Below, one piece after another: positions 1,948 to 13,449 of a stretch of DNA of 64,000 nucleotides (position 1 is the first letter of the stretch; the number at the start of each line of letters is the position of its first letter). The notes beneath the pieces were generated by a model that was given only the letters and a program-made list of their open reading frames with translations, was not told the origin of the DNA and searched no databases. A program made the position numbers and the translations under genes. Origin of the DNA: Xenophilus azovorans DSM 13620 (lineage in GTDB: Bacteria; Pseudomonadota; Gammaproteobacteria; Burkholderiales; Burkholderiaceae_C); assembly GCF_000745855.1 (NCBI RefSeq), contig NZ_JQKD01000007.1, positions 1 to 64,000 on the forward strand, read 5' to 3'.

Positions 1948-3171
1948 TCAGCGGGGCAGGCGGCGCCAGTCGCTCTCGACGGATTCCAGCCGGCCGCCGG
2001 TGGCGGTGATGCCGGAATAGTCGCGCGCCTCGGGCAGCGCGCTGGCGGGCGTCTCGTCGTTCATGAACTTCCGCACCGCCTGCAGCAGGTGGCGGCGCAG
2101 CCGGATGATGGCCTGGTCCGCGGAGCACAGGTATTCCTCCGAGCGGTCGACGATGGGGCCCATGCTGATCTGGGTGACGAAGTCCTCCACCACGATGTCG
2201 TTGAAGCCGGTGTGGTTGCCGTTCTTCATCAGCATGCGGTTCTGCCCCCAGGCGAGGTCCGGGTCGTGGCACACGCCGCCGGCCATGGGCCAGGTGTTGG
2301 CGCGCTGGGCACGCTTCATCGAATCCGTCGGCCGCTTCGTGTTGTAGAAGATGTACCACTGGATCAGGTGCGTGTCGTCGACCGGCACCGCGACGATGAC
2401 GGTGCGGTCCTGGTCGTCGCCCGTGTTGATCGGCGGGATCATGCCGTAGTAGGGCATCACGAATTCCGTCACGCGCGCCACGCAGTGGCCGTCGGCCGCC
2501 TCGCGCAGGGCGGCCGCGCGGTAGCCGTAGGGCGTGTCCTCGAAGCGGTAGCGCACGGCGCTGTTCACGCGCGTGGCTGCCATGTCCATCTTCGAGTTCT
2601 CCAGATGGCTCTGGTGCAGCAGGGCGATGTGCGAGGAGTCGATGGTCGCCTCCACGCCCTGGAGCCAGTTGGAGTTGAGTTCCAGCCCGCATGCGTACGC
2701 CTGGTCCGGCGGCAGGTCCATCCACTCGAAGTTGGGCGCCGGCGGCGCCTCGCCCTGGCCCAGCCACACCCATACCAGGCCGCCGCCTTCCAGCGCCGGG
2801 TAGTTCTTCACGTCCACCGTCTTGCGGAAGCCCTCCGGGTTGGACGCCTCGTTGGGCACTTCGAGGACCTCGCCGGACACGCAGATCTTCCAGGCGTGGA
2901 AGATGCAGCGCAGCGCGTTGTCCTCGTTGCGCGCCAGCGCGAGCGATGCGCCGCGGTGCGGGCAGGCCTCGTTGAGGAAGCCGACGTGGCCGTCGTGCGT
3001 GCGGTAGGCGACGTAGCGGTTGCCGAACAGCTTCACCCGGACCGGCGCGCCGCCGGCCTCGAGCCGGCACGAGAGCACCGCCGGCACCCAGTAGAGCTGC
3101 CGCAGCATGCGCCCCATGGGCGCGTCACCTTCGATGCGCGTCAGCAGTTCGTTTTCTTCCTTCGTTGTCAT
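1948..3171 (-). CDS. Rieske non-heme iron oxygenase, large subunit (phthalate dioxygenase-like)
   Basis: The 407-residue oxygenase should hydroxylate or demethylate an aromatic or related substrate. The N-terminal Rieske domain has C70-P-H72 and C89-I-F-H92. The catalytic domain has the mononuclear iron motif D178-S-S-H181-(4)-H186. The length and the start (MLRQLYWVPAVLS) resemble the phthalate 4,5-dioxygenase/vanillate demethylase group, which acts without a beta subunit; none is encoded here. A GAGGTG-like ribosome site precedes the ATG. It is first in its operon, behind a promoter with a shared operator. The substrate is unknown. Confidence 0.93.
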   Translation of the reverse strand: MTTKEENELLTRIEGDAPMGRMLRQLYWVPAVLSCRLEAGGAPVRVKLFGNRYVAYRTHDGHVGFLNEACPHRGASLALARNEDNALRCIFHAWKICVSGEVLEVPNEASNPEGFRKTVDVKNYPALEGGGLVWVWLGQGEAPPAPNFEWMDLPPDQAYACGLELNSNWLQGVEATIDSSHIALLHQSHLENSKMDMAATRVNSAVRYRFEDTPYGYRAAALREAADGHCVARVTEFVMPYYGMIPPINTGDDQDRTVIVAVPVDDTHLIQWYIFYNTKRPTDSMKRAQRANTWPMAGGVCHDPDLAWGQNRMLMKNGNHTGFNDIVVEDFVTQISMGPIVDRSEEYLCSADQAIIRLRRHLLQAVRKFMNDETPASALPEARDYSGITATGGRLESVESDWRRLPR

Positions 3172-3224: not shown

Positions 3225-3253
3225 AATATCTTCCTGAGAAGATAATTTGTCAA
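3225..3253 (-). promoter_or_regulatory. Sigma-70-type promoter of the Rieske oxygenase operon
   Basis: On the minus strand TTGACA (bases 3253-3248) is followed after exactly 17 bases by GATATT (3230-3225). That is a consensus -35 and a 4/6 match -10. It would give a leader of roughly 45 bases before the oxygenase ATG. An 18-bp palindrome fills the spacer and the -10, as expected for repression by steric block. Confidence 0.6.
3227..3244. promoter_or_regulatory. Operator palindrome TATCTT-N6-AAGATA, copy 1
   Basis: TATCTT CCTGAG AAGATA is a perfect 6-6-6 inverted repeat placed between the -35 and -10 of the minus-strand promoter. A second copy, identical at 18 of 20 bases including the following AT, lies before the ABC-transporter operon at 6631. 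The size suits a MarR-family dimer, and a MarR-type gene lies between the two operators. Confidence 0.65.
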
Positions 3254-3303
3254 GCAACTCAAGGGATTTCACTTAAAGATTCGCGAATGAAGCCTGCAAA
3301 TGA

Positions 3304-3322
3304 GTTGGGTAAGTTTGGCGAA
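3304..3322 (+). promoter_or_regulatory. Tandem pair of GTTKGG direct repeats
   Basis: GTTGGGTAAG is followed without a real gap by GTTTGGCGAA (start-to-start 9 bases), 40 bases before the start of the fusion reductase gene. Similar pairs occur upstream of the MarR-type gene and of the ABC-transporter operon. This is a candidate protein-binding array. The match is by eye and the last four positions vary. Confidence 0.35.
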
Positions 3323-3361: not shown

Positions 3362-5035
3362 ATGAATCCACTCCACTACCCGGTCACCGACCGATCACGC
3401 ATCCGTCTGTTCGCCGGCCGGGGATCGAACGAGAAGGCCGCCATCCACGAGGTCATCGATTCGGCGCTGTACGGCGTGGTGTCGTACGTCGTCGACGGCC
3501 AGCCTTTCGCCACGCCGACCATGGTGTGGCGCGAAGGCGACCACCTCTACTGGCACGGATCGGCGGGCAGCCGCATGCTCAAGCACCTCGCCGCGGGCGC
3601 CGACGTGTGCATCAACTTCACGCACCTCGACGGTTTCGTTCTGTCGCGGCTCGCGTCGGCCCACACCCTGAACTACCGTTCGGTGATGGTGTACGGCGCC
3701 ACCGAGCCGGTGGATTCGCTCGAGGACCGGATGGAGCAGCTCCAGCGCTTCCTCGCATCGCGCTTCCCGGGCCGATGGGAGGAGATCAAGCAGCCGAGCC
3801 TGCACGAGCTCAAGAGCATCCTGATGGTGCGCATGCGGATCCAGGAGGGCTCGCTCAAGCGGCGCGCGGGCCCGCCCGCGGACGGGCTGCCCATCTTCGG
3901 CGGTGAAGCGCTGTACGGCCAGGCCTGCTGGGCAGGCGAGATTCCGCTGGGCGTGGTGGCCTACCCGGGGCGCCCGGCGGCGAGGCTCAAGGAGGAAGTG
4001 ACGACGCCGGCATACGTCGAGACGTTCGCCGGCCACATGGGCCTGCGCACGCCGGGCGAGCAGGTCGGCCCGCCGCCGCCCGCACGCGTGAAGGTCCTGG
4101 AGGCGCAGATGGCAGCCAAGGAGGTGCGCAGGATCCGCATGCAGGCCATGGCGCCGGAGCAGTTGCCCGCGATGGAAGCGGGGACGCACGCGCGCGTGAG
4201 CGTGGTGCTGCGCGATGGGACGCGCGACTTCCGCCCCTACACCGTCGTGGAGGTCGACAGCCAGCGCCGATGGTTCGCCATCGCGGTGCTGAAGGAAGCG
4301 GAGGGCCGCGGCGGCTCGGTGTACCTGCACGACCGGGTGCAGCCTGGCGACGAGCTGGAGATCGAGGCCTTCCCCAACGAGTTCCCGATCGTGCCGTCGA
4401 CGCGGTCGGCGATCCTGGTCGCCGGCGGTATCGGGGTGACGCCGATCGTGGCCATCGCCCGGGAACTGAAGGCGCGGGGCATCGGGTTCGCGGTGCACTA
4501 CACGGCCCGGGGCGAGGCGACCGCGGCCTACCGCGGCGAACTCGCCGCGATGGGCGGCGAGGCCTACCGCTTCTACGATACGGCACGCGAGGGTTCATCC
4601 CGCATGCCCTTGCAGGAAGTCCTCGGCGCACCCGTGGCGGGCCGCCACGTGTATGTGTGCGGTCCGGCTTCTCTGGTGGATGCCGTCGTCGAGGCGGCGC
4701 TCGCGCAGGGGTATCCGCCGGAATGCGTGCATCACGAACTCTTCAAGGCGCCGCCGCCCAAGTCCACCGACCGGCCGGTCAAGGTGGACCTCACCCGCTC
4801 CGGCACCCGACTGGAGGTCGCGCCGGGCACGTCCATCCTCGATGCGGTGCTGGCGGCCGGCGTTTACGTGCCGCACAGCTGCAAGCGCGGCGAATGCGGC
4901 GAATGCGCCGTGAAGGTGGCGGCCGGTTCGGTGTCGCACCGCGACCGGTTCCTGACGCCCGAACAGCGCGGCGGCGGACTCGCCTGCATCTGCGTCTCCT
5001 GGTCCGACGGCGACGCCATCACGCTGAATCTCTAG
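3362..5035 (+). CDS. Fusion of a PNPOx-like flavin domain with a phthalate-dioxygenase-type reductase
   Basis: Residues about 20-210 resemble pyridoxamine-5'-phosphate-oxidase-like split-barrel proteins (AIHEVIDSALYGVVSYVVDGQPFATPT region, cut here in two readings at most). Residues about 265-460 form a reductase: flavin motif RPYTVV (291-296), NAD motif GGIGVTP (355-361) and CGP (433-435). The C-terminal plant-type [2Fe-2S] ferredoxin has C507, C512, C515 and C542 or C544. Electrons would flow NADH, flavin, iron-sulfur, oxygenase. An upstream in-frame start at 3287 exists, but GGAAGGAAC lies just before this ATG and homology begins here. The oxygenase operon across the promoter already has its own ferredoxin and reductase, so this is a second electron supply. 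The role of the N-terminal domain is unknown. Confidence 0.88.
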   Translation: MNPLHYPVTDRSRIRLFAGRGSNEKAAIHEVIDSALYGVVSYVVDGQPFATPTMVWREGDHLYWHGSAGSRMLKHLAAGADVCINFTHLDGFVLSRLASAHTLNYRSVMVYGATEPVDSLEDRMEQLQRFLASRFPGRWEEIKQPSLHELKSILMVRMRIQEGSLKRRAGPPADGLPIFGGEALYGQACWAGEIPLGVVAYPGRPAARLKEEVTTPAYVETFAGHMGLRTPGEQVGPPPPARVKVLEAQMAAKEVRRIRMQAMAPEQLPAMEAGTHARVSVVLRDGTRDFRPYTVVEVDSQRRWFAIAVLKEAEGRGGSVYLHDRVQPGDELEIEAFPNEFPIVPSTRSAILVAGGIGVTPIVAIARELKARGIGFAVHYTARGEATAAYRGELAAMGGEAYRFYDTAREGSSRMPLQEVLGAPVAGRHVYVCGPASLVDAVVEAALAQGYPPECVHHELFKAPPPKSTDRPVKVDLTRSGTRLEVAPGTSILDAVLAAGVYVPHSCKRGECGECAVKVAAGSVSHRDRFLTPEQRGGGLACICVSWSDGDAITLNL

Positions 5036-5070
5036 ACGATCTCCCTTCGACTCCGACAGCGAGCCTCACC

Positions 5071-5715
5071 GTGACCGAAGCCACCCGCATCCTCCATCTC
5101 ATTGCGTCGCCCCGGCCGAACAGCCGCTCCCGCGCCGTCGCGCAGGCCTATCTCGACGCATTCAAGTACGCCGATCCGGCCGTCCTCGTCGAGGAACTGG
5201 ACCTGTGGAGCATGGAGCTGCCCACCATCGACGGGGCCCTGCTGAGCGCGAAGTACGCGATCCTGGCGCGCAGGCCGCACCGGCCCGAGGAGGCGCAGGC
5301 CTGGGAAAGGGTCCTGGCACTGACGCAGCACTTCCTGAGCTTCGATCACTACGTCTTCAGCGTACCGATGTGGAACCTCGGCATCCCCTACCGGCTGAAG
5401 CACTACATCGATGTCGTCACCCAGCCGGGCATCACGTTCTCCTGGACGCCGGAACGCGGCTACGAGGGCCTGGTGCTCGGCCGTTCGGCGCTCGTCGCCT
5501 GCGCGAGCGCGTTCGACTACGGCGCCGGCTCGGCGCTCCACCCGTGGGACCAGCAGAAGTCCCACATGCACACGTGGCTGCGCTTCATCGGCATCGACGA
5601 CGTCGGGTTGATCGACTGCGGGCCGACGCGCCCGGGCGAGCCCGGCGCACAGGCCGCGCAGGCGCGCGCGGAGGAAGAAGCGATCCGGCGGGGCCGGGCT
5701 GCCCAACGCAAGTAA
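5071..5715 (+). CDS. FMN-dependent NADH:quinone oxidoreductase / azoreductase-like flavoprotein
   Basis: This is a 214-residue flavodoxin-fold protein of the AzoR family. SPRPNSRSRAVA near the N-terminus is the FMN phosphate loop, and VPMWNLGIPYRLKHYID is the conserved flavin-contact region. It probably reduces quinones or azo bonds with NAD(P)H, and here could protect against quinones made during ring oxidation. The start is a GTG; no ATG fits before the conserved N-terminus. It lies 35 bases after the fusion reductase, in the same direction, so co-transcription is likely. Confidence 0.85.
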   Translation: MTEATRILHLIASPRPNSRSRAVAQAYLDAFKYADPAVLVEELDLWSMELPTIDGALLSAKYAILARRPHRPEEAQAWERVLALTQHFLSFDHYVFSVPMWNLGIPYRLKHYIDVVTQPGITFSWTPERGYEGLVLGRSALVACASAFDYGAGSALHPWDQQKSHMHTWLRFIGIDDVGLIDCGPTRPGEPGAQAAQARAEEEAIRRGRAAQRK

Positions 5716-5721
5716 CGCACT

Positions 5722-5756
5722 GTTTGGCAAAATCCATAGAATGGTCGTTGGGCAAA
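5722..5756 (+). promoter_or_regulatory. Spaced pair of GTTKGGCAAA direct repeats before the regulator gene
   Basis: GTTTGGCAAA (5722-5731) and GTTGGGCAAA (5747-5756) are 9/10 identical and 25 bases apart start to start. The second copy lies inside the 27-bp inverted repeat abutting the regulator start codon. These are the two best-conserved copies of the motif also found before 3362 and 6735. Confidence 0.4.
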
Positions 5757-5767: not shown

Positions 5768-6604
5768 ATGTCGAAAAGCGACTCCAACAACATCGACCTT
5801 TCATCGATCGAAGCGCGGCTGGCGCTGCGCCCGCGTGCGAAGCCGTACTGGCAGGTGTGCGTGCCGGGCGCCCACCTGGGCTACTACAAGGGCCATCGCG
5901 GCAGCACCTGGTATGGCCGCAGATTCGTCGGGGACGGCAAGTACAAGCAGGAGAAGCTCGGCCCGAGCCGGGATGGACACGACACCACGGGGCTGACCTT
6001 CGAAGCGGCCCGCCAGGAACTGCTGCGCTGGGCCGCGGCGGACGGCAGGGCCGGCTCCGACCTGCATGCCACGCGGAGCGAGGCGGGACGCGCCGCGCGC
6101 CGCGTCGACGAACTCAAGCCGAATCGGCTGGATGCCATTTCCGAGGCCTGGGCATACACCCGCCCCGACGTCGATTTCTGGCTTCCCGGCTTCTTCCTGC
6201 GCATCGAATACGCCCACTATCTCCACGACCGGCGCGTTCAGGAGATCGCCAAGCAGGCCAGCACCAATGTGGGGGACATGCATGTGCTGCTCGCGCTGAG
6301 ACGCAACGGACCGGACAGCGCGATGAGGCCCACCGACCTGTACCGCGAACTCCTGGTGACGTCGGGGGCCATCACGAAGCGGCTGGACAGCCTGGTGACG
6401 CAGCGGCTCGTCGAGCGTGTCGCTGCCGTGGACGACCGGCGCTCGGAATTGGTGCGCCTGACCAAGCGGGGACTCGCCGTCGCCGATGCGGCCATGAGCC
6501 GCATCGCCACCTCGCTGGAGGACATCGTGCGCGCCAGCGGCGTGAGCCACGCGGAGTTGAAGCGCGTCGACGACTGCTTCCGCCGGCTGATTGCCGCCAT
6601 GTAG
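5768..6604 (+). CDS. MarR-family regulator with an N-terminal tyrosine-integrase arm-type DNA-binding domain
   Basis: The C-terminal half (about 130-278) is a MarR winged helix: recognition helix SGAITKRLDSLV (199-210), wing VDDRRSELVRLT (221-232) and dimerisation helices at both ends. The N-terminal part (about 10-90) is not MarR. KPYWQV, PGAHLGYYKG, RGSTWYGRR and GKYKQEKLG are the signature of the arm-type DNA-binding domain of phage tyrosine integrases. At 278 residues it is about 130 longer than a usual MarR. This ATG is preferred over 5741 because AAGGA lies just before it and 5741 has no ribosome site. It probably controls the flanking oxygenase and transporter operons. There is no recombinase catalytic domain. 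Confidence 0.82.
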   Translation: MSKSDSNNIDLSSIEARLALRPRAKPYWQVCVPGAHLGYYKGHRGSTWYGRRFVGDGKYKQEKLGPSRDGHDTTGLTFEAARQELLRWAAADGRAGSDLHATRSEAGRAARRVDELKPNRLDAISEAWAYTRPDVDFWLPGFFLRIEYAHYLHDRRVQEIAKQASTNVGDMHVLLALRRNGPDSAMRPTDLYRELLVTSGAITKRLDSLVTQRLVERVAAVDDRRSELVRLTKRGLAVADAAMSRIATSLEDIVRASGVSHAELKRVDDCFRRLIAAM

Positions 6605-6622
6605 CGCTCAGGGTAATCCTCA

Positions 6623-6650
6623 GTGACTTTTATCTTCCTAGAAAGATAAT
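6623..6650 (+). promoter_or_regulatory. Promoter of the ABC-transporter operon
   Basis: GTGACT (6623-6628, 4/6 to TTGACA) is followed by 16 bases and GATAAT (6645-6650, 5/6 to TATAAT). The 18-bp operator palindrome overlaps spacer and -10, the same arrangement as at the oxygenase promoter. Confidence 0.45.
6631..6648. promoter_or_regulatory. Operator palindrome TATCTT-N6-AAGATA, copy 2
   Basis: TATCTT CCTAGA AAGATA is a perfect 6-6-6 inverted repeat, identical to the copy at 3227 in both arms and in the first three spacer bases. It ties the transporter operon to the oxygenase operon as one regulon. Confidence 0.65.
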
Positions 6651-6676
6651 GTTTGGGAAGCTAGTTGTTGGGTTAA
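6651..6676 (+). promoter_or_regulatory. Third pair of GTTKGG direct repeats
   Basis: GTTTGGGAAG (6651-6660) and GTTGGGTTAA (6667-6676), 16 bases start to start, lie directly downstream of the operator palindrome. They are weaker matches (8/10) to the copies before the MarR-type gene. Confidence 0.3.
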
Positions 6677-6734
6677 CTGGCCCGCTCCTTGCATGGCAAG
6701 GCGCATCCGACATCACTTGGCTACCGGCCCTCCC

Positions 6735-7943
6735 ATGATGAACATCACTCGAGTCTCCCTGTCCCGCCGACGCCTCCTGCAGGCCTCGATCGCACCGCTG
6801 GCGCTCGGCGCTGGCAGCGCTTTCGCCCAGGCATCGCCTCAGCCGCGAGGCGAGATCAAGCTGGGGCAGACCATGCCCTACAGCGGCCCGCTCTCGGCGC
6901 TGAGCGCCATCGGCAAGGTGCAGGCGCGCTATTTCAGGATGGTCAACGACGGCGGCGGCATCAACGGGCGCAGCGTCACGCTGCTGTCGCTGGACGATGC
7001 CTACAACCCGGCCAAGGCCGTCGAGCAGACGCGCAACCTGGTCGAGCGCGAGGGCGTCATCGCCATGTTCGCGAGCATGGGCACGGCGCAGAACGTGGCG
7101 GTGCAGAAATACCTGAACGGCAAGAAGATCCCGCAGCTCTTCGTCTATGCGGGGAGCGACCGCTTCGCCGACCCGAAGAACTTCCCGTGGACGCTGCCCG
7201 GCCTGCCGACCTTCTCGACGGAGGCGTCGGTGTACGCCGACCACGTGGACAAGACGAAGCCCACGGCCAAGGTGGCGGTGCTCTACCAGAACGACGACTT
7301 CGGCAAGGAGTACCTGGCCGCGTTCAGGAAGCGCCTGCAGGAGATCGGCAGCAAGGTGCAGGTGGTGGCCGCCGCCGGCTACGAGGTGACCGCGCCGACC
7401 ATCGACTCGCAGATCATCAGCCTGGCGGCGAGCGGCGCCGACGTGTTCATGGACATCACGAGCCCGAAGTTCACCATCCAGGCGATCCGCAAGGTCAGCG
7501 ACATGCCGTGGAAGCCGCTGCACATCATCCCCATCACCAGCAACTTCATCGCGACGGTGCTGCGGGTGGCGGGGTTGGACAAATCCGTTGGCCTCGTCTC
7601 GGCGACGCCGAGCAAGTCGGCCGGCGACCCGGAGTGGGCGGACGACGCCGCCTACCGCGAGTGGCTCGCCTTCATGAAGAAATACTACCCCGAGGGCGAC
7701 ACGACAGAGCAGCTGAACCTGGTCGGCTACAGCATGGGCTTCCTGATGACCGAGGTCCTGCGGCGCTGCGGCGACGACCTCGGCGCCGAGCGCATCCTCA
7801 AGGAGGCCACCTCGCTCAGGAACGTCGCGCTGCCGGCGCTGGTGCCCGGCATCACGGTCAACACCTCGCCCACCGACTACCGGATCGTGCAGCAGTTGCG
7901 GCTGCAGCGCTTCGACGGCGCGCGCTGGGTGCCGCTGGCCTGA
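6735..7943 (+). CDS. ABC transporter substrate-binding protein, branched-chain amino acid type
   Basis: A 402-residue periplasmic binding protein of the Peripla_BP_6 family. The N-terminus SLSRRRLLQAS followed by a hydrophobic stretch ending SAFAQA is a twin-arginine-like signal peptide with cleavage near residue 32. The mature start GEIKLGQTMPYSGPLSALSA is typical of the family that binds amino acids, amides and aromatic acids. A second ATG follows at 6738 and either may be used; no clear ribosome site is seen. It is the first gene of the transporter operon, under the shared operator, so its ligand is probably the substrate of the ring-oxidation enzymes or a precursor. Confidence 0.9.
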   Translation: MMNITRVSLSRRRLLQASIAPLALGAGSAFAQASPQPRGEIKLGQTMPYSGPLSALSAIGKVQARYFRMVNDGGGINGRSVTLLSLDDAYNPAKAVEQTRNLVEREGVIAMFASMGTAQNVAVQKYLNGKKIPQLFVYAGSDRFADPKNFPWTLPGLPTFSTEASVYADHVDKTKPTAKVAVLYQNDDFGKEYLAAFRKRLQEIGSKVQVVAAAGYEVTAPTIDSQIISLAASGADVFMDITSPKFTIQAIRKVSDMPWKPLHIIPITSNFIATVLRVAGLDKSVGLVSATPSKSAGDPEWADDAAYREWLAFMKKYYPEGDTTEQLNLVGYSMGFLMTEVLRRCGDDLGAERILKEATSLRNVALPALVPGITVNTSPTDYRIVQQLRLQRFDGARWVPLA

Positions 7944-7948
7944 CGCAC

Positions 7949-8767
7949 ATGCAACTCTCACAGACGGACGACGCCGGCGTGCGCGACGGCGGCGCATGCG
8001 CGCCGCCGCTGCTGCGCGTCGAGGGGCTGGGCCTGCGCTTCGGCGGCATCCGCGCGCTGGCGGACGTGTCCTTCTCGGTGGCGCGCGGCGTGATCTGCGG
8101 CGTCATCGGCCCCAACGGCGCGGGCAAGACGACCCTGTTCAACTGCCTGAGCCGGCTCTACGCGCCGGACGAGGGCGAGATCACCTTCGACGACCGGTGC
8201 CTGCGCACGGTGCGCGCGCACGAGGTGCCGCGGCTGGGCATCGCCCGCACCTTCCAGAACGTGGCGCTGTTCGACCGCCAGTCGGTGCGGAAGAACGTGG
8301 AGGCGGGCTGCTTCCTGCAGTTCGGCGGCCGGCACGTCTCGGCGCTGCTGCGCAACCGCCGCGGCGCCGAAGACCGCCGCGAGGTCGCGGCGTGCGTGGA
8401 GGAACTGGTGTCCTTCGCCCGGCTGCGCGAGGTGGCGGACGTGCCGGTGTCGCAACTGTCCTTCGGCACGCGCAAGCGGGTGGAGCTGGCGCGCGCGCTC
8501 GCCATGCGGCCGCGGATGCTGCTGCTGGACGAGCCGGCCGCGGGCCTCAACCACGAGGAGGTCGAGGAACTGCTGGGATGGATCCTGGAGATACGCGACA
8601 GGATGGGCATCTCCGTCCTGCTCATCGAGCACCACATGAACCTGGTGATGCGGGTGTCCGACCAGGTCGTCGTGCTGGAGTTCGGCAGGAAGATCGCCGA
8701 GGGCACGCCGGACGAGGTGGCGACCCACCCGGACGTGGTCAGGGCCTACCTCGGAGGCGAGCCATGA
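7949..8767 (+). CDS. ABC transporter ATP-binding protein, LivG type
   Basis: A 272-residue ATPase of the branched-chain-type importers. Walker A is GPNGAGKTT, the signature is the degenerate LSFGTRKRVELARAL, and Walker B is MLLLDEPAAGLNH. The LivG-specific IARTFQNVALF stretch is present. It starts 5 bases after the binding-protein stop and overlaps the next ATPase gene by 4 bases. The glycine-poor signature (LSFGT instead of LSGGQ) is common in LivG. Confidence 0.93.
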   Translation: MQLSQTDDAGVRDGGACAPPLLRVEGLGLRFGGIRALADVSFSVARGVICGVIGPNGAGKTTLFNCLSRLYAPDEGEITFDDRCLRTVRAHEVPRLGIARTFQNVALFDRQSVRKNVEAGCFLQFGGRHVSALLRNRRGAEDRREVAACVEELVSFARLREVADVPVSQLSFGTRKRVELARALAMRPRMLLLDEPAAGLNHEEVEELLGWILEIRDRMGISVLLIEHHMNLVMRVSDQVVVLEFGRKIAEGTPDEVATHPDVVRAYLGGEP

Positions 8768-9510
8768 GCCGCACGGCCACTGCCGGCCAGGCCGGCGACA
8801 ACCTGCTGGAGGTCCGCGGCCTGTCGGCGACCTACCAGGCCACGGCCGTGCTCAAGTCGGTGGACATCGACGTCGCCCGCGGCGGGATCACCGCGCTGCT
8901 CGGCGCGAACGGCGCGGGCAAGACCACGCTGCTGCGCGCCATCAGCCATGCGCTGGTGAAGACGCAGGGGTCGATCCGGTTCGACGGGCAGCCGATCGAG
9001 GGGCTGCCGAGCGACGCGGTCGCGCGCCTGGGCATCGCCCACGTGCCGGACGGCCGGGGCACCTTCACCCAGTTGACGGTGGAGGAGAACCTGCTGGTCG
9101 GCGCGATCACCCGGCCGCGCGGCGGCGAGGTGCGGCGGGACATCGAGCGGATGTACGCGCTCTTTCCCCGACTGGCGGACTACCGCGGCAAGCCGGCGGG
9201 GCTGCTCAGCGGCGGCGAGCAGCAGATGGTGGCGATCGCGCGGGCGCTGATGCTGCGGCCGCGGCTGCTGATGCTCGACGAGCCCTCGTTCGGCCTCGCG
9301 CCCCTGGTGGTGCGGCAGATCTTCGAGGTGCTCGGGCAGATCAACCGCGAAGGCGGCCTGAGCATCCTCGTGGTGGAGCAGAACGCGCGCCTGGCGCTCG
9401 ACCTGGCCCGGCACGCCTACGTGCTGGAGGCGGGGCGCGTCGCCATCAGCGGCCCGGCGGCGTCGCTGCGCAGCGACCCGCGGGTGAAGAAGGCCTATCT
9501 CGGCATCTGA
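8764..9510 (+). CDS. ABC transporter ATP-binding protein, LivF type
   Basis: The 248-residue partner ATPase. Walker A is GANGAGKTT, the signature LSGGEQQMVAIARAL and Walker B LMLDEPSFGLAP. VPDGRGTFTQLTVEENL is the LivF hallmark. Its ATG overlaps the TGA of the preceding ATPase gene. With LivG it should form the heterodimeric motor under the two permeases that follow. Confidence 0.94.
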   Translation: MSRTATAGQAGDNLLEVRGLSATYQATAVLKSVDIDVARGGITALLGANGAGKTTLLRAISHALVKTQGSIRFDGQPIEGLPSDAVARLGIAHVPDGRGTFTQLTVEENLLVGAITRPRGGEVRRDIERMYALFPRLADYRGKPAGLLSGGEQQMVAIARALMLRPRLLMLDEPSFGLAPLVVRQIFEVLGQINREGGLSILVVEQNARLALDLARHAYVLEAGRVAISGPAASLRSDPRVKKAYLGI

Positions 9511-9533
9511 CAGGAACAAGAGGAAGAAAGCGA

Positions 9534-10406
9534 ATGACGGAGTTTGCCCAACAGGTGGCAGCGGGCTTCGTGAACGGGTGCATCTACGCCATGCTGGCGC
9601 TGGCCCTGGTCATGATCTACCGCGCGACCAACCATGTGAATTTCGCGCAGGGCGAGATGGCGATGTTTTCCACCTACATCGCCTGGTCGCTGCTGGAGGC
9701 GGGCCTGCCGTACTGGGCCGCGGCCCTGGCGGCGATCGCCTTCGGCTTCGTGGCGGGCACGCTGGTGGAGCGCGTGGCGCTGCGGCCGCTGCATGGCGCG
9801 CCGCTGCTGTCGATCGTCACGGTGTTCGTCGCGCTGATGATCATCATCCAGAGTGCCGCGGGCCTGGTGTTCGGTCACGAGAGCCACAGCGTGGCCAGCC
9901 CCTTCGACGGCTGGGGCCGGTGGGGGCAGGGCCTGCTGTCCGGCCATGCGCTGGGCACGGTCGCGGTCACGCTGGCGGTGCTGGCGTCCATGAGCGCGTT
10001 CTTCCGCTTCACCCGGCTCGGCCTGGCGATGCGCGCGGCGGCGCTGAACCCGCTGTCGAGCTCGCTGTCGGGCGTCAACGTCAACCGGGTGCTGATGATC
10101 GGCTGGGGCGTGGCCGGCGCGATCGGCGCCATCGCGGGCCTGCTGGCGGCGCCGGTGGTCTTCCTCGGCCCGCACATGATGGGCGGCATCATGATCTACG
10201 GCTTCGCCGCGGCGGTGGTCGGCGGCATCGACAGCCCGCCGGGCGCCATCCTCGGCGGCCTGGCGCTGGGGATCGGCGAGAACCTGCTCGGGGCCTACGT
10301 CACGGGCAACGAGCTCAAGCTCACCATCGCGCTGGCCGTGATGTTCGCGATCCTCGTCGTGCGGCCCCGCGGCCTGCTCGGCGGAAAGGCGATCCAGCGT
10401 GTCTGA
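9534..10406 (+). CDS. ABC transporter permease, LivH type
   Basis: A 290-residue inner-membrane permease with about eight hydrophobic segments. The motifs NHVNFAQGEMAMFSTY near the N-terminus and the late GGIDSPPGAILGGLALGIGEN loop, which docks the ATPase, are those of LivH. An AAGAGGAAG ribosome site precedes the ATG. It overlaps the next permease gene by 8 bases. Confidence 0.93.
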   Translation: MTEFAQQVAAGFVNGCIYAMLALALVMIYRATNHVNFAQGEMAMFSTYIAWSLLEAGLPYWAAALAAIAFGFVAGTLVERVALRPLHGAPLLSIVTVFVALMIIIQSAAGLVFGHESHSVASPFDGWGRWGQGLLSGHALGTVAVTLAVLASMSAFFRFTRLGLAMRAAALNPLSSSLSGVNVNRVLMIGWGVAGAIGAIAGLLAAPVVFLGPHMMGGIMIYGFAAAVVGGIDSPPGAILGGLALGIGENLLGAYVTGNELKLTIALAVMFAILVVRPRGLLGGKAIQRV

Positions 10407-11415
10407 ACCGATCAAGACCTTCGCCGTGCCGGCGCTGCTGGCCGCGGGCGTGGCGGCGGCCGCGCTGCTGCTGCCCGGCTACTGGGCGTTCAAGCTGTCG
10501 AGCATCCTGGTCCTGGCGCTGGCGGTGCGCGGGCTGCAACTGCTGATCGGCGCCAGCGGGCAGATCTCGCTGGGCCACGGCGCCTTCTTCGCGGTGGGTG
10601 CCTACGCGGCGGGCGTGCTGGTCTCGCACCAGTGGCTGCCGGCTTACGCCACCGTGCCGGTCGCCATGCTGGTCTGCGGCCTGTCGGGCTTTCTCTTCGG
10701 GTGGCCGGCGACGCGCCTGGCGGGGCCCTACCTGGCGCTGGCCACCTTCGCGCTCGCGGTCGCGCTGCCGCAGCTGCTGAAGCACCCGATGTTCGAGTCG
10801 TGGACCGGGGGCGTCAGCGGCCTCAGCCTGGACCCGGCCGGCGCGCCCTTCGGCCTCGCGTTCCTGCAGGCCGACCAATGGGCGCTGTTGTCGACCGCGG
10901 CCTGGGTCTTCGCGATCTACGCGGTGCTTCGCCGGCTGCTGGACGGGCCCGCGGGCCTGGCCTGGCTGACCCTGCGCGACCACCCGACCGCGGCCATGGC
11001 GGTCGGCGTCGACGTGAGGAAGTGGCGCGCCACCGCCTTCGCGGTCAGCGCGGCCACCGTCGGCGCGGCAGGCGCGCTGCACACCGGCCTGACCAGCTTC
11101 GTGTCGCCCGACAGCTTCACGGTCTTCCTGTCGCTGAGCCTGCTCGTGGGCGTGGCGCTGGCCGGGCCCTCGTCCGCCACGGGGACCTTCGTCGCCGCGG
11201 TGTTCCTCTCGTTCGTCCCGGACGTCGCGGAGAAGGTCTCGCAGGAACTGACCGGCGTGCTCTACGGCGTCGTGATGCTGGCGGCGGTGTTCCTGCTGCC
11301 CCTGCTGCACAGGTGGCGCGCGCGGGCGGCGCGGGCCGCATCGCCGCCGCCGGCCGCCGACCCGATCATCATCAAGGAGAAATCAAGCAATGCAGATGCA
11401 GCACAGGCCACTTGA
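10399..11415 (+). CDS. ABC transporter permease, LivM type
   Basis: A 338-residue membrane protein with the LivM motif GASGQISLGHGAFFAVGAYA. It begins with GTG inside the end of the LivH gene. The C-terminal loop is somewhat shorter and more alanine-rich than usual. The last 26 bases overlap the start of the dehydrogenase gene in another frame, which suggests tight coupling of transport and metabolism in one operon. Confidence 0.92.
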   Translation: MSEPIKTFAVPALLAAGVAAAALLLPGYWAFKLSSILVLALAVRGLQLLIGASGQISLGHGAFFAVGAYAAGVLVSHQWLPAYATVPVAMLVCGLSGFLFGWPATRLAGPYLALATFALAVALPQLLKHPMFESWTGGVSGLSLDPAGAPFGLAFLQADQWALLSTAAWVFAIYAVLRRLLDGPAGLAWLTLRDHPTAAMAVGVDVRKWRATAFAVSAATVGAAGALHTGLTSFVSPDSFTVFLSLSLLVGVALAGPSSATGTFVAAVFLSFVPDVAEKVSQELTGVLYGVVMLAAVFLLPLLHRWRARAARAASPPPAADPIIIKEKSSNADAAQAT

Positions 11416-12235
11416 GGGCAAGGTGGCCGTCGTGACGGGCGCGACCCGCGGCGTGGGCAAGGGCGTGGCCCTGGCGCTCGGCGAGGCGGGCGCGCTGGTC
11501 TACGCGACGGGGCGCACGCTGGGCCCCGGCGCGTCGAACTGGCCCGGCTCCCTGCAGGAGACCGCCGACGAGATCGCGCAGCGCGGCGGCCGGTGTATCC
11601 CCGTCGCCTGCGACCACGGCGACGACGGGAGCGTCAGGCGGCTGTTCGAGCGCGTCCACGACGAGCAGAAGGGCGTGATCGACGTCCTGGTGAACAACGT
11701 CTTCGCGGCGCCTGCGCGCATGCCGGTCAACGTGCCGTTCTGGGAGCTGGAGGACGGCCTCTGGGAGGCGCTGCTGCACGTCGGCCTGCGCTCGCACTAC
11801 GTGGCGAGCCGGTGCGCCGCGCCGCGCATGGTGGCCCGCCGCCAGGGCCTGATCGTCAACACCTCGTCCGGCGGCGCCGTGCGGTACACCTTCAACGTGC
11901 CCTTCGGCGTGCAGAAGGCGGGCGTCGACAAGATGGCCCGCGACATGGCGCACGACCTGCGGCCCTTCAACGTCGCCTCGGTGGTGATCTGGCCGGGCTT
12001 CATCAAGAGCGAGAAGTTCCTGGCGCAGCCGGACCGCGTGCCCGCGCCGCTGGCCAGGCGCATCATGGAAAACGGCGAGTCGCCCGAGTTCGCCGGGCGC
12101 GCGGTGGCCGGCCTGGCCTCGGACCCGGCGATCATGGAGAAGTCCGGCAGGCTGCATCTCGTCGCGGAACTGGCGCAGGAGTACGGCTTCACCGACATCG
12201 ACGGCAGGATGCCGGAGGCGCCGGCGCGCGCCTGA
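11390..12235 (+). CDS. Short-chain dehydrogenase/reductase lacking the catalytic tyrosine (DHRS1-like)
   Basis: A 281-residue classical SDR fold. The cofactor loop is TGATRGVG (16-23), VNN follows at 101-103, and the catalytic serine lies in NTSSGG (158-162). The normal Y-x-x-x-K pair appears as F172-G-V-Q-K176: the lysine is kept but the tyrosine is phenylalanine. The surrounding NVP-GV-KAG context matches DHRS1-type proteins, which have Tyr there. The protein may be inactive as a dehydrogenase or may use another acid. An AAGGAGA site lies 9 bases before the ATG. It is the last gene of the transporter operon. Confidence 0.85.
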   Translation: MQMQHRPLEGKVAVVTGATRGVGKGVALALGEAGALVYATGRTLGPGASNWPGSLQETADEIAQRGGRCIPVACDHGDDGSVRRLFERVHDEQKGVIDVLVNNVFAAPARMPVNVPFWELEDGLWEALLHVGLRSHYVASRCAAPRMVARRQGLIVNTSSGGAVRYTFNVPFGVQKAGVDKMARDMAHDLRPFNVASVVIWPGFIKSEKFLAQPDRVPAPLARRIMENGESPEFAGRAVAGLASDPAIMEKSGRLHLVAELAQEYGFTDIDGRMPEAPARA

Positions 12236-12239
12236 GGCG

Positions 12240-12848
12240 TCATCCGCCCAGGTAGCGCACGATCATCCGCGTGGCTTCCTGCGCGAGCGCGTCGCCGTGC
12301 TCCGGCGCCTTGCCGGCGAGCATCACGCGGTGCGAGAGCGATTCCAGCAGCGCCTCGATGACCACGGCGGCGAGGGCGAGGTCGATGCCCGGCGCGATCT
12401 CGCCCTCGTGCTTGCGCAGCATCGCCTCGATCAGCCGGGTGGCGGAGCGGCTCACCATGTCCGTGCGTTCGGCCACGCCCAGGCGCGGGGCCAGCACCAG
12501 CACCATCCGGTGCAGGTCGGGCGCCAGGTGGTGCGAGACGAGGGTCACGTCGACGATCGCGCGGATGCAGTCCTCCAGCGTGGCGCGGCGGCGGCCGGCC
12601 AGGGCGGCCTCGAAGGCGGCCAGGAATTCCTCGCAGCAGCGGTCGATCACCGCATAGGCCAGCGCGGCCTTGTTGGGGAAGTATTGGTAGAGCGAGCCGA
12701 CGCTCACGCCGGCGCGCTCGGCGGCGCGCGCGGTGGTGAAGCGGTCGTAGCCTTCCTTCAGCAAAACCTGAGTGGTCGCCTCGACGATGGCCTCGACCGT
12801 GGCCTTGGCGCGGGCCTGGCGCGGCGATTTCCTTGGCTTGACGTCCAT
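12240..12848 (-). CDS. TetR/AcrR-family transcriptional regulator
   Basis: A 202-residue TetR-type repressor. The N-terminal HTH is RFTTARAAERAGVSVGSLYQYFPNKAAL in two short blocks around residues 32-60, with the hallmark Y-Q-Y-F. The C-terminal part is a helical ligand-binding domain. A longer frame opens at 12965, but homology starts at MDVKPRK, so this ATG was chosen. It converges on the SDR gene (4 bases apart) and is divergent from a DinB-like gene, its likely target. Confidence 0.9.
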   Translation of the reverse strand: MDVKPRKSPRQARAKATVEAIVEATTQVLLKEGYDRFTTARAAERAGVSVGSLYQYFPNKAALAYAVIDRCCEEFLAAFEAALAGRRRATLEDCIRAIVDVTLVSHHLAPDLHRMVLVLAPRLGVAERTDMVSRSATRLIEAMLRKHEGEIAPGIDLALAAVVIEALLESLSHRVMLAGKAPEHGDALAQEATRMIVRYLGG

Positions 12849-12917
12849 GAGCGAGGGGCGCGTGAAAAGCGAATAGAAAAAGGGATCGGTTGGCGGCACA
12901 TTCTGTAGACGTTTCCG

Positions 12918-12935
12918 GGAGGCTGCAGCGCCTCC
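12918..12935. promoter_or_regulatory. Candidate TetR operator
   Basis: GGAGGC TGCAGC GCCTCC is a perfect 6-6-6 inverted repeat in the divergent region between the TetR-type and DinB-like genes, 29 bases before the DinB start codon. Position suits a repressor site for both genes. In such GC-rich DNA chance palindromes occur, so confidence is moderate. Confidence 0.4.
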
Positions 12936-12963
12936 GTCCAACCCACGGAATGCCGCCATCATC

Positions 12964-13449
12964 ATGAACTCGCAACCCTATTCATCGCTCGTGCGCTACA
13001 AGCAGTGGGCCGACCGCGGCCTGCACGCGGTCGTCGCCCGCGACATCGCCCGCATCCCCGAGGCCGACGCGGTGATCCTCCTGCGCATCCTCGACCACAT
13101 CCACGTGGTCGACCGGGTCTTCCAGCACCACCTGCAGGGGCGGCCCCATCCGTTCCGCGCGGCGCGCTCGGAGGTGCTGCCCGGCGCGCAGGAACTGGCC
13201 GAGGGCACGGAAGAGGCGGACGCGTGGTACGTCTCCTACGTCGATGGACTGTCGGGCAAGGACTTCGACCAGCCGGTGGACTTCAGCTTCACCAACGGCA
13301 CGCCGGCGCGCATGACGCGCGGCGAGATCCTCCTGCACGTGTGCCTGCACGGCACCTACCACCGCGGCAACGCGGGCCTGCTGCTGCAGAAGAACGGCGT
13401 CGCGCCCAACGACGACCGGATGACCGATTTCCTCGAAGCGGGAGCCTGA
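12964..13449 (+). CDS. DinB-family metal-binding four-helix protein
   Basis: A 161-residue protein of the DinB/YfiT superfamily. The metal-binding histidine triad is visible as H47 (in LDHIHVVDRV), H129 and H133 (HGTYHRG). Members act as thiol-dependent S-transferases or isomerases, or have unknown roles. It is divergent from the TetR-type gene and followed after 4 bases by a cupin gene in the same direction. The precise substrate cannot be told. Confidence 0.85.
   Translation: MNSQPYSSLVRYKQWADRGLHAVVARDIARIPEADAVILLRILDHIHVVDRVFQHHLQGRPHPFRAARSEVLPGAQELAEGTEEADAWYVSYVDGLSGKDFDQPVDFSFTNGTPARMTRGEILLHVCLHGTYHRGNAGLLLQKNGVAPNDDRMTDFLEAGA

Follow-up and report, generated by a model that had tools for sequence, protein, structure and literature searches.

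The stretch of DNA analyzed here (the window) comprises 64,000 nucleotides of contig NZ_JQKD01000007.1 of Xenophilus azovorans DSM 13620. It contains an open reading frame (ORF) of 278 amino acids (aa) that raises two questions: whether a MarR-family regulator is joined in it to the arm-type DNA-binding domain of a tyrosine integrase, as the original prediction had it, and what a protein so built would read at its promoters. The fusion gene is present at several loci, whose promoters carry two conserved motif classes (a palindrome and a direct repeat) at corresponding positions. Exact tandem repeats are absent from control loci whose MarR genes carry no arm domain, and similar repeats lie beside integrases. 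The reading favored here, to which we assign a probability of about three in four, is that of a dual-readout repressor, in which a MarR dimer would occupy the palindromes, the arm domains would occupy the repeats, and the gene would regulate itself at its own -10 element. Binding, repression, the ligand and the simultaneous use of both domains are inferred from sequence.

Homology and conservation of the N-terminal domain

Judged by profile comparison, the N-terminus is homologous to the integrase arm domain. A chance resemblance was rejected because a hidden Markov model (HMM) built from 20 integrase N-termini recovered the window protein over residues 10-106, with an independent E-value (i-E) of 5.9e-15 (search space set to 1000). 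The comparison of the fusion N-terminus with integrase N-termini in hhalign yielded a probability of 98.3%. A sensitive comparison could have found residues 1-100 unlike integrase arms, and it found similarity instead. These results agree with the tblastn and profile searches described below, and the assignment of residues of about 10-90 to an integrase arm-type domain is upheld; the motifs KPYWQV, PGAHLGYYKG, RGSTWYGRR and GKYKQEKLG, on which it had been based, are located at residues 25-65.

As a single sequence, the N-terminus alone had no match in Pfam, PHROGs, the PDB (sequence search) or phage records, and a second PDB sequence search with the arm domain returned a single weak and irrelevant match. 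In a tblastn search against plasmids, it matched three annotated integrase genes (E 7e-7, 4e-4 and 9e-3). The Pfam model Arm-DNA-bind_3 matched five of the 21 N-termini in alignment A4 (E up to 1, best 4.5e-6); neither this model nor any other in Pfam matched the window's own N-terminus. Profile searches, two with fusion N-termini and a third whose profile included two integrases as well, produced 39 non-self matches (21, 5 and 13), 36 of which were confirmed as integrase ORFs with the catalytic domain PF00589. The remaining three are a contig-edge fragment (L062), an unscanned ORF of 293 aa (L066) and L072, which is not integrase-like; L062 and L066 resemble pieces of integrases. A search of viral contigs with the profile of the fusion arm led to nothing useful. 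Plasmid searches with the arms of integrases L046 and L111 gave one self-match and no match, respectively, and the L111-like integrases found in viral contigs were not used further. No other gene with the fusion arm domain was found in the window genome (the next match has E 0.03, and the profile searches returned the fusion alone).

The description of residues 130-278 as a normal MarR winged helix also stands, with the MarR part spanning residues of about 118-278. Pfam MarR_2 matched residues 170-226 (E 1.5e-10, 41.5 bits with a cut-off of 27), the Pfam MarR model scored 26.8 bits (cut-off 24.6), and the best PDB match of this part is 8ylh (residues 120-244, E 2.1e-16). The Pfam scan found no tyrosine recombinase catalytic domain (PF00589) in the fusion protein. 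In the alignment, all five other fusion loci have an ATG at the position of the 5768 start; a longer start, at ATG 5741, was rejected since the alignment favors 5768 and the longer form would enclose the repeat at 5748 within the gene.

The fusion is rare, with six loci in five organisms. A scan of 84,980 species, which used one genome per species and can detect close relatives only, turned up four loci, from three strains: L001 and L003 (two copies about 7 kb apart in Variovorax paradoxus ISL-79), L002 (Hydrogenophaga intermedia S1) and L004 (Variovorax sp. J22P271). Another locus, L044, is on a 2.5-Mb plasmid of V. paradoxus VAI-C and was obtained from PLSDB. The possibility that the fusion is common in the genus or family was rejected, given that it occurs in 1 of 15 genomes of the window's genus and in 1 of 399 of the sampled family, the window's own (at most 6 or 12 candidates were scored per genome). 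A Cupriavidus MarR protein (L045, 83% query coverage) was rejected as a further fusion, since no arm domain is seen in it when read by eye. When the loci were surveyed for adjacent catabolic genes, five of the six were found beside a Rieske-oxygenase/ABC-transporter cluster and one beside remnants of that cluster.

Purifying selection acts on the arm domain, and the linker is nearly free of it. Among intact fusion proteins, the ratio of nonsynonymous to synonymous substitution rates (dN/dS) is 0.11-0.50 for the arm domain (10 pairs), 0.34-1.54 for the linker (nine of the 10 pairs, one being not computable) and 0.06-0.27 for the MarR domain (all pairs). This bears on the idea of a functionless frame created by accidental or recent joining, which would suit the rarity of the fusion and the frame break in the arm region of L003, beside the cluster remnants. 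Yet the frame is intact in five of six loci, the window protein shares 62-69% identity with the four other intact proteins, and the arm domain has the dN/dS values given above. Hence, we regard an accidental join as scarcely credible, contradicted as it already is by conservation across species.

Palindromes and direct repeats at the fusion promoters

A word count that presupposed no motif covered 2278 bases of the six fusion loci, in 14 intergenic stretches picked by hand. TATCTT occurs 10 times, versus 0.42 expected, and TTGGGTA occurs 12 times, versus 0.24 expected; in 200 shuffles, no 7-mer was counted more than 7 times. With at most one mismatch, the palindrome TATCTTn6AAGATA occurs twice in the 6.5-Mb genome, each time within the cluster, and orthologous sites are present at other fusion loci. 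The direct repeats, read across these loci, have the consensus TTGGRYAA, which is conserved at fusion promoters. The original prediction had inferred that two DNA-binding domains might allow one protein to recognize two kinds of promoter motif. At the level of sequence this is supported, as conserved palindromes and conserved direct repeats are both present at the fusion loci.

The motifs are arranged at three sites. At S1, the repeats are upstream of the reductase gene, and in orthologues they are beside the Rieske palindrome. At S2, the fusion gene's own promoter, repeats are found in all six loci (degenerate in the window) with no clear palindrome, and in orthologues the putative -10 element of the regulator falls inside the second repeat (TTGGGTAGACT, TTGGATAAAAT). 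At S3, the ABC-transporter promoter, the gap between palindrome and repeat is fixed at 4 bp in five of six loci, and a second TTGGG unit follows 13-15 bp further in four of six.

As a control, we considered 29 arm-less MarR loci from the family genome search, 26 of which were found again by tblastn at E up to 1e-3 (i.e., all except L021, L022 and L024). The palindrome core ATCTTn6AAGAT is present at 13 of the 29 loci and the exact tandem TTGGRYA at none. When one mismatch is allowed, there are 22 pairs in 190,386 strand-bases of arm-less loci (0.05 per 450 bases), versus 1-5 pairs in 450 bases at each fusion locus. On this distribution, the palindrome goes together with the MarR domain, and the repeats go with the arm domain. 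In the arm-less loci L011, L013 and L018 (about 1419-1477), two ATCTTn6AAGAT palindromes lie upstream of the gene, with starts 34-35 bp apart. A search of the open-access literature for the palindrome gave no work on MarR proteins among the matches listed.

Repeats beside integrases with related arms

An arm domain that reads direct repeats predicts such repeats at integrases with related arms. Tandem near-identical 9-mers were found at most 80 bp upstream of the integrase gene (int) in 23 of 30 integrases (shuffles: mean 0.73, maximum 4), the internal coding control for this first set giving 2 of 30. A second set yielded 13 of 18 (shuffles: mean 0.39, maximum 3), for a total of 36 of 48. PF00589 is present in 47 of the 48 genes (20, 18 and 9 in three scans), L086 being below the Pfam cut-off; L062, the contig-edge fragment, was retained in the first set. 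Left out of the 30 were the duplicates L054, L059, L061, L068 and L105, the near-duplicate L065, the partial L066, L072, and eight viral loci that lacked sufficient upstream sequence or were not taken further (L074, L077-L081, L083 and L085). Repeat-bearing integrases include L053, L055, L056, L057, L082, L064, L071, L104, L111 and L134.

The letters of the repeats vary between integrases (TTTCCGTAC, TTTCATACC, TTTTGGTAC, TTAGGATA and others). Upstream of L111 and L134, they are of the TTGGGCA type (TATTGGGCAACTATTGGGCATCAATTGGGGAG) and the TTGGACA type (ATTGGACAAAGAGTTGGACAGA), respectively (i.e., the fusion motif). Three of the 48 integrases (L084, L111 and L134) are preceded by exact TTGGRYA pairs, versus none in 1000 shuffles. 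In similarity of the arm to that of the fusion, L111 and L134 rank second and third of the 48, and L084 is far down. Identity between arms correlates with identity between repeats (Mantel rho 0.48, p 0.001, n = 36), a relation that shared descent of whole integrases could also explain. The repeats upstream of int are likely arm-type sites, in which case they could be read straight from sequence. For Burkholderia, no arm-type sites were found in the open-access literature. In L111, about 0.4 kb separates int from a tRNA-Met gene (L111 2159-2235), and the intervening DNA carries what, by eye, resembles a further tRNA 3' end, a probable attachment (att) site context.

Several observations weigh against the dual-readout reading. 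Integrase L133, whose arm domain is the nearest of all, lacks an upstream tandem repeat, as do L046, L047, L139 and L140, and among the 36 pairs some are questionable arm sites, being of other sequence or having an uncertain gene start (L042, L053, L113, L114 and L144). Over all 48 integrases, arm similarity and repeat score are not significantly related (Spearman 0.22, p 0.14). The pooled integrase motif compares weakly with the fusion motif (p 0.025 by column permutation, 0.14 with random letters), and in this comparison the reverse complement scores higher. Spacing is 11 bp in 29 of 36 integrase pairs, versus 9 and then 14-19 in the fusions. Because the six fusion loci form one close family, the association between motif and fusion rests on few independent events. 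The window's repeats are moreover the most degenerate, with no exact TTGGRYA pair and one pair within one mismatch in the stretches tested, while exact pairs, one or more per locus, are present in the other five; the exact tandem pattern has no match in the window genome on account of this degeneracy. Finally, prophage KplE1 (PMC2951348) provides a precedent for the proposed autoregulation, in that the arm site P'1 of integrase IntS overlaps the -10 element of the negatively autoregulated intS promoter, but single P' mutations, that of P'1 excepted, gave no derepression there.

The weakness of the general motif comparison would also suit an arm domain that is folded but no longer DNA-specific, serving as an appendage for stability or dimerization, with the TTGGRYAA repeats belonging to another regulator of the cluster. 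Candidates exist, as L044 has a LysR gene about 5.8 kb upstream and the window has a TetR gene at 12240-12965. LysR and TetR sites, however, are usually dyads. In addition, the repeats are at the fusion gene's own promoter in six loci, with exact pairs at 0 of 29 arm-less loci, TTGGGCA or TTGGACA repeats accompany the integrase genes for two of the three nearest arms, and purifying selection continues to act on the arm domain. We therefore consider such an appendage unlikely.

Given the resemblance of the repeats to those beside integrases, they could instead be att-type arm sites of an integrated element, in which case the fusion would compete with the integrase and couple catabolism to excision or transfer. 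The sporadic occurrence of the regulator (1/15 in the genus, 1/399 in the family) and the copy on a 2.5-Mb plasmid are in keeping with this. Nevertheless, the window genome yielded no second gene with the fusion arm domain, and the repeats are at promoters of catabolic genes (att sites themselves were not searched for), which leaves such a coupling very improbable.

As for how the dual-readout arrangement may have arisen, an integrase promoter with its repeats could have been joined to marR en bloc, together with the arm codons, the repeats then spreading to the palindromes of the catabolic operons. The fusion would thereby have been autoregulated at once, and the autoregulation of an integrase domesticated into a transcription-factor circuit. 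This origin is offered tentatively, as we lean slightly against it.

Proposed regulation, neighboring genes and known systems

The protein proposed here is a fusion of a ligand-responsive MarR-family regulator and a tyrosine integrase arm-binding domain. Its MarR dimer would bind TATCTTn6AAGATA within the Rieske-oxygenase and ABC-transporter promoters, overlapping the core promoter, and its two arm domains, on a flexible linker of about 25 residues, would bind the TTGGRYAA direct repeats (TTGGGTAA repeats) beside the palindromes. In such a composite operator, arm domains on the adjoining repeats would steady the palindrome-bound dimer. At its own promoter, which has repeats and no palindrome, the arm domains alone would cover the -10 element, resulting in autorepression. 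Release of the MarR dimer would be triggered by a substrate of the cluster, presumably an aromatic one to judge from the LigXa-like C-terminal domain of the oxygenase. This domain points to a lignin-type aromatic, which may also act as the inducer.

The features of the window are presented in Table 1. In the annotation of L044, the fusion is preceded by the Rieske gene and followed by the ABC operon, and the neighbors at L001, L002 and L004, read from translations, are the same. In the window, the ABC operon genes encode a substrate-binding protein and two permeases (by profile) and two ATPases (by eye from the translation). The longest ORF of the reductase starts at 3287 and traverses the conserved operator repeats, so that 3362 is the likelier start. 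Downstream of the ABC operon, the TetR-family gene adjoins a short-chain dehydrogenase (11390-12235), and its product is another possible regulator of the cluster. At L003, the arm region of the fusion copy (about 5974-6826) is in a different frame from the rest, which may be a frame break or a sequencing error. Upstream of it is the end of an azoreductase-like gene, and downstream is only the beginning of a substrate-binding gene, followed by an amidase-like ORF; the promoter still holds repeats and palindrome despite these truncated neighbors.

Table 1. Features of the window, in window coordinates.
Feature	Position	Strand	Basis
Fusion regulator gene, 278 aa (integrase arm-type domain and MarR domain)	5768..6604	+	ORF, Pfam, HMM, alignment
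Arm-type DNA-binding domain, residues ~10-92	5795..6043	+	HMM/hhalign to integrase N-termini, dN/dS
Linker, residues ~93-117, sequence variable	6044..6118	+	fusion alignment, dN/dS
MarR dimerization and winged-helix domain, residues ~118-278	6119..6601	+	Pfam MarR_2, PDB 8ylh
Palindrome TATCTTCCTGAGAAGATA, site S1, divergent Rieske-oxygenase promoter	3227..3244	.	
Sigma70-like promoter TTGACA-17-GATATT for Rieske gene, containing S1 palindrome	3225..3253	-	
Tandem repeat TTGGGTAAGTTTGGCG, upstream of likely reductase start 3362	3305..3320	+	start inferred
Direct repeat TTTGGCAAA, site S2, regulator's own promoter	5723..5731	+	
Putative -10 TAGAAT of regulator promoter	5737..5742	+	read from alignment; promoter scan did not find it
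Direct repeat TTGGGCAAA, site S2	5748..5756	+	
Sigma70-like promoter GTGACT-16-GATAAT toward ABC operon, containing S3 palindrome	6623..6650	+	
Palindrome TATCTTCCTAGAAAGATA, site S3, ABC-transporter promoter	6631..6648	.	
Direct repeat TTGGGAAG, 4 bp past S3 palindrome	6653..6660	+	
Direct repeat TTGGGTTAA, ABC promoter	6668..6676	+	
Rieske oxygenase, LigXa-like C-terminal domain, probable target	1948..3171	-	Pfam
Reductase (pyridoxamine-oxidase-like and 2Fe-2S domains, NADH-oxidoreductase-like middle), probable target	3362..5035	+	
Flavodoxin-fold, NADH-azoreductase-like protein	5035..5715	+	
Branched-chain-amino-acid-type ABC transporter, probable target operon	6735..11415	+	gene order same as annotated in L044

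In comparison with the MarR family (PF12802/PF01047; e.g., PDB 8ylh, E. coli MarR), the C-terminal half of the fusion matches by sequence and its palindrome lies inside the promoters of neighboring catabolic genes, the core being common to 13 of 29 arm-less relatives. Unlike that family, the fusion has an additional N-terminal domain of about 92 residues, of integrase origin, and a second class of promoter motif. According to a published account (PMC8138268), the arm-binding domain is a mark of mobile-element integrases, has been described in lambda Int and Tn916 Int, and has a fold consisting of a three-stranded sheet plus one helix. With the arm domains of tyrosine recombinases the fusion shares sequence homology, the N-terminal position and direct repeats just upstream of its own start; its arm, however, is joined to a MarR domain instead of being followed by core-binding and catalytic domains. 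As in the KplE1 promoter, the repeats (predicted arm sites) overlap the -10 element of their own gene, but IntS is a recombinase, whereas the arm of the fusion is part of a ligand-type transcription factor for catabolic genes.

The layout had been put forward as unfamiliar among described MarR proteins. In agreement with this, no arm-MarR fusion was found in the open-access literature among the matches listed, subscription papers and preprints outside PMC being beyond the scope of the search. The MarR regulator and the arm domain have each long been known; what the searched literature does not describe is a single protein that joins both, with both types of site at promoters.

The arm-site repeats of integrases are apparently readable from the DNA just upstream of int, and the dual-readout prediction is simple to test. 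If it is true, the fusion would offer an easy, soluble system for studying the arm-site code of a large group of integrases. The protein would be a transcription factor that reads DNA in two unrelated ways, through a dimeric reader of palindromes and a recombinase-derived reader of direct repeats, and the arm domain, discussed so far as a recombination module, would be reusable as a transcriptional DNA-binding domain.
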